Shown here: positions 28,562 to 36,447 of the stretch, piece by piece
Numbering within the stretch: the stretch's first letter is position 1
Layout: each line of letters starts with the position of its first letter
Assembly: GCA_903825645.1 (NCBI GenBank)
Contig: CAIKBL010000058.1
Location: 1 to 36,447, forward strand
Direction: 5' to 3'
DNA: 36,447 nucleotides
Source: an uncultured Pseudomonadota bacterium
GTDB taxonomy: Bacteria; Pseudomonadota; Gammaproteobacteria; Ga0077536
Made by a program: the position numbers and the translations under genes
Notes under the pieces: model-generated
Seen by the model: only the letters and a program-made list of their open reading frames with translations
Told to the model about the DNA's origin: nothing
The model's database searches: none

Positions 28562-30283
28562 TTACTTCGACGGGAGCGCGAACACCCAGAGCACGCCTCC
28601 TTGTGGAACCGCAGTCTTGATTCCGAAGGACTTATCGAGGTATTCCTGCTTGCGTTGCGCGTCCACGCCCCAGCCGGATTGTACCGCGACGTATTGCACG
28701 CCATCGACTTCGTAGGAAGTGGGGACGCCGACCACGCCAGAGTTGGTGCGCTGCTTCCAGAGGATTTTGCCGGTCTTGGCATCGAAGGCGCGGAAATTAC
28801 GGTCATTGGTCCCACCCGAAAATACCAATCCCCCACCGGTAGTCAGAATGGGGCCCCAGTTATGAAAAGGGAATTTCACGGTCCAAACCTTCTCGCCTTT
28901 GGCGAGATCCCAGGCCTGCAATTCTCCGATGTGATCTTTGGCATCGGGATGGGTAAATACTTCGAGTTTGGCCAGTGACACGCCCATGTACAGCTCACCG
29001 CGTTTGTATTTTGCAGGCTCCCCGGTGATCGCACCACATAGATTTTCATTGGCCGGGATGTACAACAGGCCCGTTTGGGGGTTGTAGGCTTCTGGCGGCC
29101 AGTCTTTCCCGCCCCACATGCTGGGACAAAATTCCGCACGCTTGCCGATACGCGGCACTTTGGTCTCGTCGTAGGTTGGGCGTCCGGTCATGGGGTCAAT
29201 GCTTGTAAAGACATTCTGGCGCACGTACGGGCGCGCGCCAATGAAACCGATCGCGTCTGGTTTCCGCTCGAGGAACCAGAGGTAACCGTCACGTCCGGCG
29301 TGGACCAGTGCTTTGATTACCTTGCCGTTGCGGCGGATGTCGACCAGCAACGGCGCCGACACTTCATCCCAGTCCCAGGAATCGTTCCAGTGATATTGGT
29401 GATAGCCACGCAATTTCCCTGTTTTGACATCAAGCCCCAGAACCGAGCTGGAATAGAGGTTGTCACCCGGCCGTTCGGTCCCTATCCACTGGCCTGCATT
29501 GCCGGTCCCCCAGTACACCGTTTGGGTGATCGGATCGTAGCTGCCGGTGACCCAAGCAGGAACGCCGCCGCGTTTCCAAGAGTCGCCGGGCCAACTGTCG
29601 TTTCCAGGCTCCCCGGCTCCCGGGATGGTGTAGGTTTTCCAACCAGGTTTGCCGGTTTCGGCGTCGAACGCCTGGATAAATCCCCGTGTGCCGAATTCGC
29701 CACCGGATACGCCAACAATCACCTTGCCGTCCGCTGCCAGCGGCGCGAGCGTCATGTAGTAGCCGCCACGGTAGTCTTCGACTTTTTGTTCCCAGACCAC
29801 CGCCCCGCTCGTCGCATCTAGGGCGATCAGATACGCATCGACGGTCGCGAGATAAACCTTGTCACCATAGAGCGCGACGCCTCGATTCGTCGGGTGCAGC
29901 TGGAACAATTCATCCGGGAGCTCGCGCTGGTAACGCCACAGTTGTTCTCCCGTTCGCGCGTCCAGGGCAATGACCCGATTTTGCGGTGTGGTAATGAACA
30001 TCCGCCCCTCGTTGACGATCGGCGGCGACTGGTGGGCTTCCGTCATTCCCGTTGAGAAGGTCCAGGCTGGACGCAACTTTGCGACATTGGCCGTGGTGAT
30101 TTTAGCCAGGGGACTGTAGCCCCAACCATTGTAGGTGCCGCGGTACATCAACCAGTTCCGGGCCTCGGGCGCGATGAGTCGTGCATCGGTGACGGCCGGG
30201 TAACTGGCCTTTTCAGCCGCCATGAGCGGTAATCCGCCCTGTAATAGGAGTAGCAAACTGAGTATTAGAAGCGGCGATCGCAT
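28562..30283 (-). CDS. PQQ-dependent alcohol dehydrogenase-like quinoprotein (lanthanide-type Asp, no vicinal Cys pair)
   Basis: Periplasmic eight-bladed propeller dehydrogenase of the methanol/ethanol family. The 573-residue protein has a signal peptide (about 1-22) and no C-terminal cytochrome c domain. Blade W-motifs recur (for example ALDARTGEQLWRYQ, ALDATSGAVVWEQ, AFDAKTGKILWKQ). Active-site residues by alignment from memory: E196 (GGEFGTRG), N262 (GTGNAGQW), catalytic D304 and a second Asp D306 (SWDWDEVS). The Asp two residues after the catalytic Asp is the mark of lanthanide-using enzymes (XoxF, ExaF/PedH). The usual adjacent Cys pair before NRGVALY is missing; QL stands there. It lies 24 bases downstream of the Rieske gene and is surely co-transcribed with it. 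Substrate is unknown. Confidence 0.92.
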   Translation of the reverse strand: MRSPLLILSLLLLLQGGLPLMAAEKASYPAVTDARLIAPEARNWLMYRGTYNGWGYSPLAKITTANVAKLRPAWTFSTGMTEAHQSPPIVNEGRMFITTPQNRVIALDARTGEQLWRYQRELPDELFQLHPTNRGVALYGDKVYLATVDAYLIALDATSGAVVWEQKVEDYRGGYYMTLAPLAADGKVIVGVSGGEFGTRGFIQAFDAETGKPGWKTYTIPGAGEPGNDSWPGDSWKRGGVPAWVTGSYDPITQTVYWGTGNAGQWIGTERPGDNLYSSSVLGLDVKTGKLRGYHQYHWNDSWDWDEVSAPLLVDIRRNGKVIKALVHAGRDGYLWFLERKPDAIGFIGARPYVRQNVFTSIDPMTGRPTYDETKVPRIGKRAEFCPSMWGGKDWPPEAYNPQTGLLYIPANENLCGAITGEPAKYKRGELYMGVSLAKLEVFTHPDAKDHIGELQAWDLAKGEKVWTVKFPFHNWGPILTTGGGLVFSGGTNDRNFRAFDAKTGKILWKQRTNSGVVGVPTSYEVDGVQYVAVQSGWGVDAQRKQEYLDKSFGIKTAVPQGGVLWVFALPSK

Positions 30284-30306
30284 GTCGGTTTCCTGTCAGG
30301 AGTGGG

Positions 30307-30885
30307 TCACAATTTTTTGAGGCCGACCTTGGCAGTAAAGGCGCCTTGGACGATCAAATATTGGCCAGCAATTGAGAGTGGTAAGGCCGGCAGCGGACGG
30401 GGCGCGGGACCGGCGACGACATTTGCATGGCCGCTGACGTCATATTCGGAATTGTGGCAAGGGCAGAGGAGGTGTCGGGTTTCCCCCTTCCATTCCGAGA
30501 CCGCGCACGCAGCATGGGTACAAATGCCGGAGTAGGCCACTATTCCCTCAGCCGCGCGCACGCGGGTGGTGTCATCCAGTGTCTTGATGTCGAGTTTTAT
30601 CAGGAGGATCTGGTTAAGACGCGAGCCATCACGGACCACGCCACTGAGGGGATCTCGTGGATAGACCAGCAGCGGTGGCGCATTCAACATAACGTCCGCT
30701 GGAATAAGCGAACGTTCACCCGAGACGGTCAACTGGTCGCCCGGCTGGGGGGGAAGAGTCGAAGGCGAAGGCTCTTCGGCAGCACTGGGGTCGCTTAGGC
30801 CGATGATCGCGATTCCGACAACCTTTCGGAGCCATAGCCGCCGGGCTGTACATCCAACTGGTGGTTCGCTTTGGCATTCTGTCAT
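30307..30885 (-). CDS. Exported Rieske [2Fe-2S] protein, high-potential type, Tat signal
   Basis: A 192-residue electron-transfer protein from the ATG at 30885, preceded by a GAAAGAAGA ribosome-binding region; another in-frame ATG ten codons upstream is less likely. The N-terminus TARRLWLRKVVGIAIIG has twin arginines and a hydrophobic stretch, so Tat export of the folded protein is expected, possibly with the segment kept as an anchor. The Rieske motifs are CTHAAC and CPCHNSEYD. Ligands are the first Cys and His of each; the extra Cys in both loops forms the disulfide typical of high-potential bc1-type Rieske proteins. It is first in an operon with the PQQ dehydrogenase and could accept electrons from it. 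No cytochrome b or c1 gene of a bc1 complex is adjacent. Confidence 0.9.
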   Translation of the reverse strand: MTECQSEPPVGCTARRLWLRKVVGIAIIGLSDPSAAEEPSPSTLPPQPGDQLTVSGERSLIPADVMLNAPPLLVYPRDPLSGVVRDGSRLNQILLIKLDIKTLDDTTRVRAAEGIVAYSGICTHAACAVSEWKGETRHLLCPCHNSEYDVSGHANVVAGPAPRPLPALPLSIAGQYLIVQGAFTAKVGLKKL

Positions 30886-31795
30886 CTTCGGTCTTCTTTC
30901 ATGCGAAAACGGCATCGGAAATCAGGCGGAGGGCTTGTGGTGCGACGCAAACCCGCGGGGTGTCGCGGGGCGGGCTCAGAATCAACTTCGTCTGTTGTTG
31001 GTTGTTCACCTGATCTGATTTTTTCGCATTGTTCCTTAGAAACGAGCGGCACGTAAATCACCATGTGAAATGCTGCGACGCAACAACAATACAGTAAATC
31101 AACAGATGTTAGCCCGAAGGTATCCAGGCGCGACTCGGCTTACGTCAGCCCGGTGATCATGGATGCGCGCGTCGCGCACACTCTCCGACAATTCGAGCAA
31201 GATGGACGCTGCAGCGCCGACGGGAGTGGGTCCGTCCTTTATCAACCAATGACCACTAACGTCTGCGCTGACCGACCGGACCGGACGCCCGCGGGCGATT
31301 GGCGAAAAAGATTAAACGTCACGTTAGGTCTCACCATGGACCAAGTTCACACAGTCCTCGCAACGTCCGTCAACCCGGGTAAGGGAAAAGACGATGAGCG
31401 TAAGGTTTGCTCGTGGGTAGAGGAAGGCTCAAGCGGGGACTCGTGCTTTCACCTCTGCGTGCTAATTTGTGCGCCGATTTCTTCCTGCGATACAGTGGCG
31501 CGCCTCTTGCCGCGAGACCAAGGCGGAAACGTGGTGGCTAAAAAATCGTTACGGTCACCAATCGATAGACAGACATCAGTTAAGGACTTTGCAAAATTAC
31601 GCTGACGAATTAAAAATTCTAGGGCTTACTTGTTTCTGATCGACTCCAAAAAATTCTCCTTAAATTTTCAAAACGATAGATTGGAAATAATTTGCATCCA
31701 CCCGCCGCCGTTTATTTTCGCGCAAATCAGGCGTGATACTGCCAACCGTCAATGGATCCGAATGGTTCGCTCTCAATACGGTGATGCGCTCTTGA
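30886..31795. other. Gene-poor stretch upstream of the Rieske operon
   Basis: About 900 bases with no coding region I can support. The part next to 30885 must hold the promoter of the Rieske/PQQ unit. A plus-strand open frame at 31153-31605 (150 codons) shows no family motif, no good ribosome-binding site and uneven composition, and is probably chance. The stretch 31600-31700 is noticeably AT-rich. Confidence 0.5.
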
Positions 31796-32635: not shown

Positions 32636-32923
32636 ATGATGACACTTAGCTATCGTGATCGCGAACTGGTTGCGCTTGGTGCAGCACTCGCCGCCAATTG
32701 TATTCCATGTATCGAGTACCACGTCCCGGAGGCTCGAAAGGCGGGCCTTAGAGATTTGGAAATAGGGGAAGCCATCGAGCTTGCCGACAAGATTAAACGG
32801 GTACCGGCGGGAAAGGTACTGGAGGTGGCCGCCGCGTTGTTGGGCATGCCCGTCGCCAAAGCCGATGAAACCAAGCGCGACTGCAACGCGGGCTCAGCAC
32901 AAGCCACTAAGTCCTGTTGCTGA
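32636..32923 (+). CDS. Carboxymuconolactone decarboxylase/AhpD-like small protein with Cys-rich tail
   Basis: A 95-residue single-domain CMD-family protein. C22 and C25 in ANCIPCIEYH, with the following H29, form the CxxC-x3-H redox or peroxidase-like site found in AhpD and related proteins. The helix pair REALVALGAALAA-like (RDRELVALGAALAA) and EIGEAIELADKIKRVPAG fit the family. After the domain, the tail DCNAGSAQATKSCC adds three cysteines, which may bind a metal or take part in disulfide exchange. GGAG lies before the ATG at 32636; a second ATG follows at once. It is upstream of the ECF sigma gene by 59 bases, with a strong hairpin between. It is probably a redox or detoxification protein; no substrate is evident. 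Confidence 0.88.
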   Translation: MMTLSYRDRELVALGAALAANCIPCIEYHVPEARKAGLRDLEIGEAIELADKIKRVPAGKVLEVAAALLGMPVAKADETKRDCNAGSAQATKSCC

Positions 32924-32937
32924 TGTTGGCGTAAACA

Positions 32938-32967
32938 ATGAGGCGCGCCATGGCCGGCGCGCCTCAT
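32938..32967 (+). terminator. Strong 12-bp hairpin between the CMD and sigma genes
   Basis: ATGAGGCGCGCC and GGCGCGCCTCAT form a perfect 12-bp stem with the 6-base loop ATGGCC, 15 bases after the CMD stop. It contains two AscI-like GGCGCGCC cores. No T-run follows; GAGGGGG, the sigma ribosome-binding site, starts 4 bases later. It may be a partial terminator or an mRNA processing or translation-control hairpin that sets the CMD to sigma ratio. Confidence 0.6.
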
Positions 32968-32982
32968 GACGAGGGGGAAGTC

Positions 32983-33552
32983 ATGAGTACTCACGGAGAG
33001 AAGCGCGGATTCGTGCAGATAGCTCGAACGCTTCGCGCGCCTTTGCTCAGGTATCTGCAGCGTCAAGTCGGTGATCAGACCATGGCCGAAGATTTGCTCC
33101 AGGAGACACTGCTTCGTGTTGGTTGCGGTTTATCAGAATTTGCGGGACGGGCGAGCGTCAAGACCTGGGTATTCTCAATCGCCAGCAACGTCGCCATGGA
33201 TTATCTACGCCAACCCGCTCACCGACTGATGGTGGTCGAGATTGAGGAGGCTGCCAACGTCCCAACGGACGAGGTGGCACTTGATGACCGTTTAGTCATC
33301 GACGAGATGAACCTCTGTGTGCGCGAAGTGATCGACAGTCTGTCAGCCGACTATCGCACCGCTTTGATACTGCACGACTTCGAGGGTATGTCCGTCGAGC
33401 AAACGGCCGAAATCTGTCAGTGCGCACTCCCGACCGCCAAGATCCGCATCTACCGCGCGCGGCAACGCCTGAAGGATGCGTTAGGTCGTCAGTGTGACTT
33501 TTATCGAGATAGCGGGAACGTATTCAGATGCACGCGCAGCATAGAAGGCTGA
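32983..33552 (+). CDS. ECF-type RNA polymerase sigma factor with Cys-containing C-terminal tail
   Basis: A 189-residue sigma-70 family factor made of regions 2 and 4 only. Region 2 includes TMAEDLLQETLLRV and ASVKTWVFSIASNVAMDYLR. Region 4 has LSADYRTALILHDFEGMSVE followed by the helix-turn-helix QTAEICQCALPTAKIRIYRA. After region 4 the tail CDFYRDSGNVFRC carries two Cys, and CQC lies in the recognition domain. Such cysteines could bind zinc or sense redox state. The ATG at 32983 follows GAGGGGGAAG. No anti-sigma gene follows, so control may be through the CMD protein or the tail itself. The frame is open 15 codons upstream through the hairpin. It is not ECF41-like, since no SnoaL domain is attached. 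Confidence 0.9.
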   Translation: MSTHGEKRGFVQIARTLRAPLLRYLQRQVGDQTMAEDLLQETLLRVGCGLSEFAGRASVKTWVFSIASNVAMDYLRQPAHRLMVVEIEEAANVPTDEVALDDRLVIDEMNLCVREVIDSLSADYRTALILHDFEGMSVEQTAEICQCALPTAKIRIYRARQRLKDALGRQCDFYRDSGNVFRCTRSIEG

Positions 33553-33953: not shown

Positions 33954-34601
33954 CTATTGCGTCAAGTTCGGCAAAGATCCGCTGAGTATCATATAAAAAT
34001 AATAAGCCCACACTAGAGCTAAACCAATGCCAACGAAATACAGAGGATACCTAATGGCTTGGTCTGGTGAACCTTGTTTTTTGCCTGTCACCATCGATCG
34101 AATTAAGTTTTCTTTTTGTATGAGGCTCATGATGATTGCAGCGGCTATATGCATTACAACAATTCCAAACGCTAGGCTGGCAATTGCTTCATGTGCCCCA
34201 CTCATGAAGTGCCCAAGATACTCCTTGACGCTCCAATAACCCGTTAAGCCAATGAGCAGAATTAAGATCATTAATGAAATCATCGCCAAGGCGCCTGTAG
34301 GATTGTGCCCGAGGCCAGAATGCTGATTGCCGGTTAGCAGGGACTTAATATGACCCATAGTTTCTGCTGGGCCTTTAACGAATTGACTAAAGCGCGCATA
34401 TCTAGTGCCAACTACTCCCCAAACGATTCTAAATAGAACTAGGACGCAAGCTGAGTACCCAAACGTATAGTGAATCATTTGCGGCGGTTCGCTTTCCGAA
34501 GTGAGCCAAGCACCCGTAAATGAAATCACCAAAAGCCAATGAAAGACTCTGACAGGAACATCCCAAACTAGAACGGGTTTTTTTTGATTAGAAGTATTCA
34601 T
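33954..34601 (-). CDS. Cytochrome b561/Ni-Fe hydrogenase cytochrome b-type membrane protein
   Basis: A 215-residue di-heme cytochrome b of the b561 (bacterial/NiFe-hydrogenase) family. Motif by motif: VWDVPVRVFHWLLVISFTGAW with the first His in TM1, MIHYTFGYSACVLVLFRIVWG with His in TM2, a third membrane segment LAMISLMILILLIGLTGYWS, then SGAHEAIASLAFGIVVMHIAAA with two His in the fourth. A further C-terminal hydrophobic segment follows. It shuttles electrons between the quinone pool and a periplasmic c-type cytochrome. The ATG overlaps the stop of a truncated cytochrome c gene (ATGA), so its partner has been lost. Base use is visibly AT-richer than in the core genes, suggesting later acquisition. 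Confidence 0.9.
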   Translation of the reverse strand: MNTSNQKKPVLVWDVPVRVFHWLLVISFTGAWLTSESEPPQMIHYTFGYSACVLVLFRIVWGVVGTRYARFSQFVKGPAETMGHIKSLLTGNQHSGLGHNPTGALAMISLMILILLIGLTGYWSVKEYLGHFMSGAHEAIASLAFGIVVMHIAAAIIMSLIQKENLIRSMVTGKKQGSPDQAIRYPLYFVGIGLALVWAYYFYMILSGSLPNLTQ

Positions 34602-35789: not shown

Positions 35790-36447
35790 CCCGCTTATCA
35801 GCGGGTGGTCGAAAACAAAGATGCTGCCGGAGTCGACGGCATCGGGGTCGCCGAGTTCAAGGATCATCTCAAGCAACACTGGCCGACGATCAGGGCCAAA
35901 CTGTTGGGGGACTACCTGCCCCACGCAGTGCACCGAGTAGATATACCGAAGCCGCAAGGCGGGGTCAGGACACTCGGTATTCGAACGCTGGCGGATTGTA
36001 TGATCCAACAGACGTTACATCAGGTGCTCTCGCCGATCTTCGAGGCTGAATTTTCCGAATTAAGCTACGGCTTCCGACCGGGGAGGAACGCCCCCCAAGC
36101 GGCCAGGCAGTATGTCGCCGATGGTCGCAGGACTGTGGTCGACGTGGACTCAGAGAAATTCTTTGACCGTGTCAATCATGATTTGCTGATGGAGAAGCTC
36201 TCAAGGAAAATCGACGATGGGCGAGTACTTCGCTTCATACGCCGGTATCTCGAAGCGGGGATGATGGTAGACGGGAACGTATCCCAACGGACGGGAGGCA
36301 CGCCGGGGCCACGCCTTCTGCCGATAAGCCGATGACTGCAACCTCTATGTCAAAAGCCAACAGGCAGGGGAGCGGGTTATGGCGAGCATCACGCGGTTTC
36401 TGGCGGATACGCTCAAGCGCACGGTCAATGCGTCCAAGCGCGCGGTG
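35790..36447 (+). pseudogene. ltrA: Group II intron reverse transcriptase/maturase, degenerate, cut by the window end
   Basis: The plus strand encodes the first RT motifs of a group II intron maturase: AYQRVVENKDAAGVDG, then RVDIPKPQGGVRTLGIRTLA, SYGFRPGRN and VDVDSEKFFDRVNHD. After RTGGTP the reading is broken. The segment that should run from QGGPLSPLL to before the catalytic box is missing (about 25 residues), and the frame resumes as GHAFCR-stop-ADDCNLYVKSQQAGERV. The stop at 36325-36327 (TAA) stands exactly where the Tyr of YADD should be (TAT). The N-terminal 40 or so residues before AYQRVV are also absent and no intron RNA 5' end is seen. The element is dead. Coding similarity continues to the last base (TFVNASKRAV-like end), so the 3' part lies outside the window. 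Confidence 0.88.

Follow-up and report, generated by a model that had tools for sequence, protein, structure and literature searches.

A Rieske protein gene paired with a PQQ alcohol dehydrogenase gene across five phyla: a conserved module and a proposed electron acceptor

The general view of alcohol dehydrogenases that use pyrroloquinoline quinone (PQQ) is that they pass their electrons to cytochrome c, which raises the question of what accepts electrons from such an enzyme when the gene beside it encodes a Rieske iron-sulfur protein. This arrangement is found in the window analysed here, a 36,447-nucleotide stretch of an uncultured gammaproteobacterium of the Ga0077536 lineage (contig CAIKBL010000058.1, assembly GCA_903825645.1). 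The contig is part of a 4.1 Mb genome and carries a Rieske gene followed by a quinoprotein gene, both on the minus strand. We found that the pair is a conserved module, and the best explanation is that the Rieske protein serves as the dedicated electron acceptor of the paired quinoprotein, a reading to which we assign a probability of roughly 80% on the strength of comparative sequence data. The features on which the argument draws are as follows, in window coordinates, with their basis in brackets.

28562..30283, minus strand: quinoprotein (PQQ-dependent alcohol dehydrogenase), 573 amino acids, a beta-propeller without a cytochrome domain (TIGR03075, model, structural match)
30284..30306, no strand: intergenic gap of 23 bases (gene coordinates)
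30307..30885, minus strand: Rieske [2Fe-2S] protein, exported, 192 amino acids from the likely ATG (PF00355, model, 1nyk match)
30772..30885, minus strand: Tat-like (twin-arginine) signal region of the Rieske protein, with RR at residues 15-16 (RR motif common to paired Rieske proteins)
30505..30522, minus strand: Rieske cluster box 1, C122-T-H-A-A-C127 (ligand conservation)
30448..30465, minus strand: Rieske cluster box 2, C141-P-C-H-N-S146 (ligand conservation)
29879..29899, minus strand: LHPTNRG, residues 129-135, the site of the vicinal Cys-Cys of other PQQ alcohol dehydrogenases (alignment)
29696..29698, minus strand: E196, equivalent to PedH position 199 (E in 47/47 paired rows)
29498..29500, minus strand: N262, equivalent to PedH position 281 (N in 47/47 paired rows)
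29366..29374, minus strand: D304-W-D306, catalytic Asp and extra Asp, a lanthanide-type motif equivalent to PedH 323 and 325 (alignment)
29291..29293, minus strand: R331, active-site Arg (R in 47/47 paired rows)

A first-pass annotation of this DNA had correctly placed the two genes side by side on one strand, with a gap of 24 bases that we count as 23; the short gap is consistent with a single transcript for both genes. The first ATG of the Rieske frame lies at 30915, and alignment with relatives favours the later ATG at 30885.

The simplest alternative is that the two genes are chance neighbours in one genome, which itself holds 12 Rieske-domain and 32 PQQ_2 matches. Linkage was examined in several sets of genomes. 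Within the family, a strong match to the Rieske protein (E below 1e-40) was present in 20 of 58 genomes, the window's own included, and a quinoprotein gene adjoined it in all 20. From the enzyme side, the same 20 genomes contain 21 loci at a minimum of 65% identity, 20 of them paired and one beginning at a contig end, and seven weaker family matches (41-45% identity) showed no Rieske gene in the fetched flanks. Named genomes were scanned with the Rieske alignment, and among the best 80 of 567 relatives the first 24 were all paired (24/24; two enzymes are cut by a contig end and one is split over two frames), while in the remaining 56, actinobacterial by title, the retrieved flank contained no enzyme of this kind. 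Record titles among the 24 include Rokubacteria, Gemmatimonadota, Myxococcota, Bradyrhizobium, Acetobacteraceae, Chenggangzhangella and Gammaproteobacteria; two loci in this set (L045, L062) apparently duplicate family records and contribute to both counts. On plasmids, all 10 examined places with an enzyme of at least 46% identity were paired (8 read, 2 from coordinates). These places are the best of records H1-H9 plus one further in Methylobacterium aquaticum, with other places in H1, H2, H3 and H8 outside the count, and the pairs belong to Roseomonas, Azoarcus, Deinococcus, Paracoccus, Alteromonas and, as two cassettes, Methylobacterium aquaticum 22A.

Broader samples gave the same result. 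When three candidates were scored per genome in a phylum sample of 398 genomes, an enzyme of the clade (E below 1e-180) was found in 12, the window's own included, and was paired in 12/12; two weaker matches (43-44%) were unpaired. A Bradyrhizobium-like genus carries the enzyme in 53 of 60 genomes (57 matches), and the 30 loci examined were all paired, with enzymes 84-100% identical to one Bradyrhizobium enzyme; among them, L232 matches the L040 proteins of Bradyrhizobium sp. Ghvi at 100% identity and probably comes from that same genome. A class-wide sample, scored at a strict cut-off (E 1e-140) with at most 6 candidates per genome, yielded the enzyme in just 2 of its 229 genomes, which belong to the same genus as the window; few members of that class therefore carry it beyond certain families.

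Overall, the roughly 90 pairs found, some of them partial, span five phyla and both gene orders, with the order swapped and the genes still adjacent in Paracoccus, Alteromonas and one phylum-sample genome (L205). No gene other than that of the quinoprotein is always found beside the Rieske gene, and the two are paired in every clade member with a readable neighbourhood. On these linkage counts we reject chance adjacency, whose probability we regard as negligible, and we conclude that the pair is a conserved module, found in many genomes and not unique to this one. Because the module occurs in unrelated surroundings, it is suggested to move as a unit. A passing look for a fused gene revealed none, and in the long-frame loci L204 and L124 the coordinates place the two genes in different frames. 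Our literature search returned no publication that describes the pairing, although a mention in Keltjens 2014 or Huang 2019 is possible.

We also considered what kind of Rieske protein is encoded. The protein scores 40.9 bits against PF00355 (cut-off 20.3), and its model (predicted local distance difference test score, pLDDT, 89.3, low in the first ~30 residues) has the Thermus Rieske protein 1nyk as its best solved fold match (TM-score 0.92 by target). Residues C122, H124, C127, C141, C143 and H144 are invariant in all 24 rows of Rieske alignment A4, and the motifs C-x-H-x-x-C and C-x-C-H, which comprise two Cys and two His ligands and two further Cys, are present in 46/46 paired Rieske proteins. 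An RR motif lies within the signal stretch of 44 of these 46, the window protein included; one exception is a masked sequence (L052), and the other has its RR further upstream (L058). Since the Tat-like signal and the cluster ligands are all present, the earlier description of an exported Rieske protein preceding the quinoprotein holds, and the likely cleavage sites, as judged by eye, suggest that the paired Rieske protein is soluble. Identity as a cytochrome bc1 Rieske subunit was rejected, since the protein scores 42.4 bits against the proteobacterial bc1 model TIGR01416 (cut-off 97.4), and the genome encodes a separate bc1-type Rieske protein that scores 228.5 bits. Nine of the 12 Rieske-domain matches in the genome fall in frames of ~400-470 amino acids, as in ring-hydroxylating oxygenases.

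The quinoprotein passes the family cut-off of TIGR03075, which describes methanol and ethanol PQQ dehydrogenases (578 bits, cut-off 480), and pqqE was found in the same genome. Its model (pLDDT 82.8 overall, falling below 50 in a few stretches) has PedH entries as top structural matches (Z 50.5 for 6zcw and 50.4; 1.8 A over 530 residues), followed by XoxF (6dam, Z 48.4) and then many alcohol dehydrogenases at Z 48 to 44. Alignment with PedH gives Glu, Asn, Asp, Asp and Arg at all five checked positions, and the four active-site residues claimed in the first-pass annotation, among them D306, are borne out: E196, N262, D304 and D306 align with PedH 199, 281, 323 and 325, which we take to be metal-binding. 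The Pfam matches include no cytochrome family, and the C-terminal cytochrome c domain of the quinohemoprotein (type II) class is absent from the 573 residues.

The clearest structural mark of the enzyme was missing from the first-pass annotation. In related enzymes, a vicinal Cys-Cys forms a ring beside PQQ; the window quinoprotein has Leu-His there instead and is one residue shorter at this site. Among the aligned tree rows, Cys-Cys is present in only 1 of 47 paired rows, whereas 31 of 37 unpaired rows carry it, including 30/30 of the unpaired rows with an E-N-D-x-R site. One row of the paired set, L137, is cut by a contig end so that its partner is not visible, and it is counted as paired in these residue counts and in the tree of 84 rows described next.

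In the 84-row tree, 46 of the 47 paired rows form one clade (Shimodaira-Hasegawa-like approximate likelihood ratio test, SH-aLRT, 97). This tree left out four low-scoring propellers (L121_3, L041_10219, L042_10109, L172), duplicates (L062, L045, L142), partial genes (L043, L138, L140 and one L059 piece) and L055. In the complete genome of Chenggangzhangella methanolivorans, the quinoprotein gene linked to the Rieske gene (L059, 8170-10241) runs over two frames, as a broken gene or a sequence error. In a reduced tree, from which 11 further rows were removed (ten distant or long-branch rows and L137), all 46 remaining paired rows form one clade (SH-aLRT 95) with Deinococcus branching first, so that the paired set including Deinococcus is monophyletic only after this removal. 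The other 45 paired rows comprise a D-x-A group of 5, seen in the reduced tree, and a D-x-D group, whose full extent shows in the 84-row tree. The sister of the paired clade in the reduced tree consists of enzymes with a cytochrome c-domain partner (SH-aLRT 94). Support values come from quick searches with no bootstrap. The paired quinoproteins thus form a separate clade, outside the XoxF and ExaA/PedH subfamily clades to which the first-pass annotation had proposed comparing them. From the tree, we infer that the Rieske protein was recruited first, that Cys-Cys was then lost, and that the metal motif diverged afterwards. Divergence of the Rieske protein correlates with that of the enzyme (r = 0.66 over 46 pairs), and the best of 2000 permutations reached 0.20.

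To place these results against the usual acceptor, we scanned for other electron-carrier genes. In the window, a scan that is not exhaustive found no CXXCH gene on the same strand within 3 kb whose product has a hydrophobic N-terminus; this and the Pfam result agree with the earlier statement that the enzyme lacks a cytochrome domain and a nearby cytochrome c gene. The same kind of scan found a CXXCH gene at 12 of 35 unpaired loci; comparison with the paired loci is weak because flank lengths differ. We read 15 plasmid regions whose enzymes are further removed, at 45% identity or less: an annotated Rieske protein was found in 0/15, and a gene annotated as cytochrome c or containing a cytochrome c domain in 9/15 (L155, L181, L183, L184, L187, L188, L190, L192, L193). 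A high-potential iron-sulfur protein (HiPIP) gene occurs in 2/15, alone in L186 and alongside a cytochrome c-domain gene in L181; neither kind of gene is present in the other 5/15. In the window's own genome, the sister enzyme C7 (42% identity) has an adjoining cytochrome c-domain gene. Taken together, linkage, the survival of pairing through a swap of gene order, and the position of the Rieske gene where some sisters have cytochrome c support the earlier proposal of a Rieske-linked route and a distinct module.

We propose that the pair would constitute a two-gene periplasmic module for alcohol oxidation. The quinoprotein would oxidise an alcohol with metal-bound PQQ, the metal here being a lanthanide as judged by the motif, and reduced PQQ would then pass two electrons, one by one, to the separately encoded Rieske [2Fe-2S] protein, which most likely hands them to the cytochrome c pool of the cell and an oxidase. 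The Rieske protein would thereby fill the place held in other PQQ alcohol dehydrogenases by a cytochrome c (XoxG, PedF/ExaB, or a cytochrome domain), within a clade that has lost the vicinal disulfide next to PQQ and whose members are D-x-D (lanthanide-type) or D-x-A (calcium-type). In this proposal, the direct transfer of electrons, the identity of the metal, the substrate, the solubility of the Rieske protein and the downstream acceptor are all inferred. We further lean, with less assurance, towards a new class of electron transfer, in which the quinoprotein and a soluble Rieske protein would form a specific complex and reduced PQQ would pass electrons directly to the [2Fe-2S] cluster via the site freed by loss of the disulfide; this class would have lanthanide and calcium versions and would include the enzyme carried by 53 of 60 genomes of the Bradyrhizobium-like genus.

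A different role for the Rieske protein is conceivable if a general cytochrome c encoded elsewhere were the true acceptor and the Rieske protein an accessory factor in assembly, protection or sensing. XoxF and PedH-type enzymes use cytochrome c, and the sister enzymes are linked to cytochrome c genes, which favours this alternative. Yet all cluster ligands and the two extra Cys are retained in 46/46 Rieske proteins, as a redox carrier would show, no cytochrome c gene recurs constantly beside the pair, and Cys-Cys, which all 30/30 unpaired rows with the E-N-D-x-R site possess, is missing from the paired enzymes. We therefore consider an accessory role quite improbable.

The surroundings of the pair bear on another alternative. 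We clustered the neighbouring genes of 25 loci (the window and 24 others), with frames antisense to both genes set aside, and found no third constant gene. The most frequent clusters comprise 4 loci each; they are a di-heme peroxidase-like gene and two types of subunit of a molybdenum aldehyde oxidoreductase, the latter two covering 6 loci between them, all identified by eye. In Roseomonas, a Pfam-checked [2Fe-2S]/molybdopterin pair of the aldehyde oxidase/xanthine dehydrogenase type adjoins the cassette, and similar molybdenum genes, as judged by eye, lie in 6 of the 25 loci, from Bradyrhizobium, Acetobacteraceae and another alphaproteobacterium. The Rieske protein could thus act in the same pathway without being the acceptor of the quinoprotein, serving for example the molybdenum aldehyde oxidoreductase or another step. 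However, no member of the molybdenum clusters was found in the other 19 of the 25 loci, and the quinoprotein alone is constant beside the Rieske gene, so we judge this alternative unlikely. Genes for the aldehyde dehydrogenase aldA are found close to the cassette in Azoarcus, Paracoccus and Alteromonas. A primary alcohol would fit as substrate.

Several observations weigh against a dedicated Rieske acceptor. Of 28 paired loci scanned over 2 kb of flank, 4 have a CXXCH gene (L041, L042, L153 and L046, in the last of which it lies beside another PQQ gene), and the scan undercounts, because it missed the C7 cytochrome gene, whose frame overlaps that of the enzyme; a cytochrome c encoded elsewhere is a possible acceptor. 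The Deinococcus pair is the sole paired row that retains Cys-Cys, and in the 84-row tree it falls just outside the clade with two long-branch rows. Correlated divergence would also be expected from joint inheritance alone. Moreover, loss of Cys-Cys and recruitment of the Rieske protein each represent about one event on the tree, which means that their association is not statistically strong. Finally, quinoproteins without Cys-Cys, some with D-Y-D, have already been reported from marine archaea (HMT; PMC11845868).

We next consider whether the pairing is related to the metal. The first-pass annotation had called the enzyme lanthanide-type; the D-x-D motif is indeed present, and the class label is weaker than it was stated to be, because D-x-D is common in the superfamily and D-x-A occurs among paired enzymes. 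Both positions are D in 34 of 37 unpaired rows, which indicates that D-x-D is a common state of the superfamily. Paired rows have D-x-D in 42/47 and D-x-A in 5/47, and D-x-A also occurs in three phylum-sample genomes with a paired enzyme. Rieske pairing and the lanthanide motif are thus separate traits, since the calcium motif D-x-A also appears in some paired enzymes. Lanthanide dependence of the window enzyme is plausible. According to PMC11996626, D-x-D is taken as a mark of lanthanide binding and is carried by 61% of ocean PQQ dehydrogenases.

The plasmid of M. aquaticum 22A has two Rieske-quinoprotein cassettes ~305 kb apart, the first D-x-A and the second D-x-D. In this strain, gene 1p30675, with Ala at the motif position, is repressed by lanthanum, and gene 1p32165 is without a clear lanthanum pattern (Masuda et al., 2018; PMC5784242). 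If locus tags rise by five, the two genes are 298 steps apart, which fits the distance between the cassettes and suggests, from tag spacing and not from annotation, that 1p30675 and 1p32165 are the two cassette enzymes. Should this identification hold, the response of the calcium-type member is the expected one, and lanthanide control gains no support from the D-x-D member. The word 'Rieske' was not found in the available text of that paper.

Other genes of the loci include, in the window, a cytochrome b561-family gene (PF01292) at 33954-34601, an AhpD-like gene of the carboxymuconolactone decarboxylase family followed by an extracytoplasmic function (ECF) sigma factor gene at 32636-33552, and, near the contig end at 35805-36335, a frame that by eye resembles a partial group II intron reverse transcriptase. 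The Paracoccus/Alteromonas cassettes encode a protein of 146-153 amino acids after the Rieske gene, with no Pfam match (L151, 8391-8831; L152, 8372-8818; L153, 8443-8904). A gene of the luciferase-like flavin monooxygenase type, recognised by eye, recurs near PQQ dehydrogenase genes (L044, L045, L046, L170).

If the Rieske protein is the acceptor, then a whole clade in five phyla uses an iron-sulfur protein, which would change how respiratory routes are predicted from genomes. The Rieske pairs and the HiPIP-linked enzymes together suggest that the acceptor is exchangeable, and a family without the vicinal disulfide and with another acceptor would make the purpose of the disulfide a testable question. 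Members occur in named, culturable genera (Paracoccus, Methylobacterium, Alteromonas, Bradyrhizobium), which makes tests practical.

Among known systems, the closest structure to the window enzyme is the lanthanide-dependent PedH of Pseudomonas putida (6zcv, 6zcw), with 41% identity and matching E/N/D/D/R positions. PedH and ExaA form a separate clade and, unlike the paired enzymes, retain Cys-Cys, and three loci of this clade carry the cytochrome c-550 PedF. XoxF methanol dehydrogenase shares the fold and the D-x-D motif but forms a separate clade, and the XoxF-type loci L192 and L193 have adjoining c-type cytochrome genes and keep Cys-Cys. The quinoproteins of Caballeronia and Burkholderia multivorans, together with C7, are the sister of the paired clade; they have a partner gene with a cytochrome c domain and keep Cys-Cys. 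The marine archaeal quinoproteins lack Cys-Cys as the paired clade does, a likeness drawn from description and not from sequence, and the available part of PMC11845868 has 0 occurrences of 'Rieske'. In Variovorax (L186) and Burkholderia multivorans (L181), a HiPIP gene lies beside or near the PQQ dehydrogenase gene, which, like the Rieske pair, represents an exported-type iron-sulfur protein; HiPIP is another protein family, however, and the enzymes linked to it fall outside the clade of paired enzymes and retain Cys-Cys. By sequence and fold, the closest solved relative of the window Rieske protein is that of Thermus thermophilus (1nyk, 3fou), which is titled a quinol-cytochrome c reductase subunit, whereas the window protein fails the proteobacterial bc1 cut-off. 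The fold of the window Rieske protein also matches AioB of arsenite oxidase AioAB, whose cofactor enzyme is a molybdenum protein and not a quinoprotein, and in which a Tat-exported Rieske subunit takes electrons from that enzyme.

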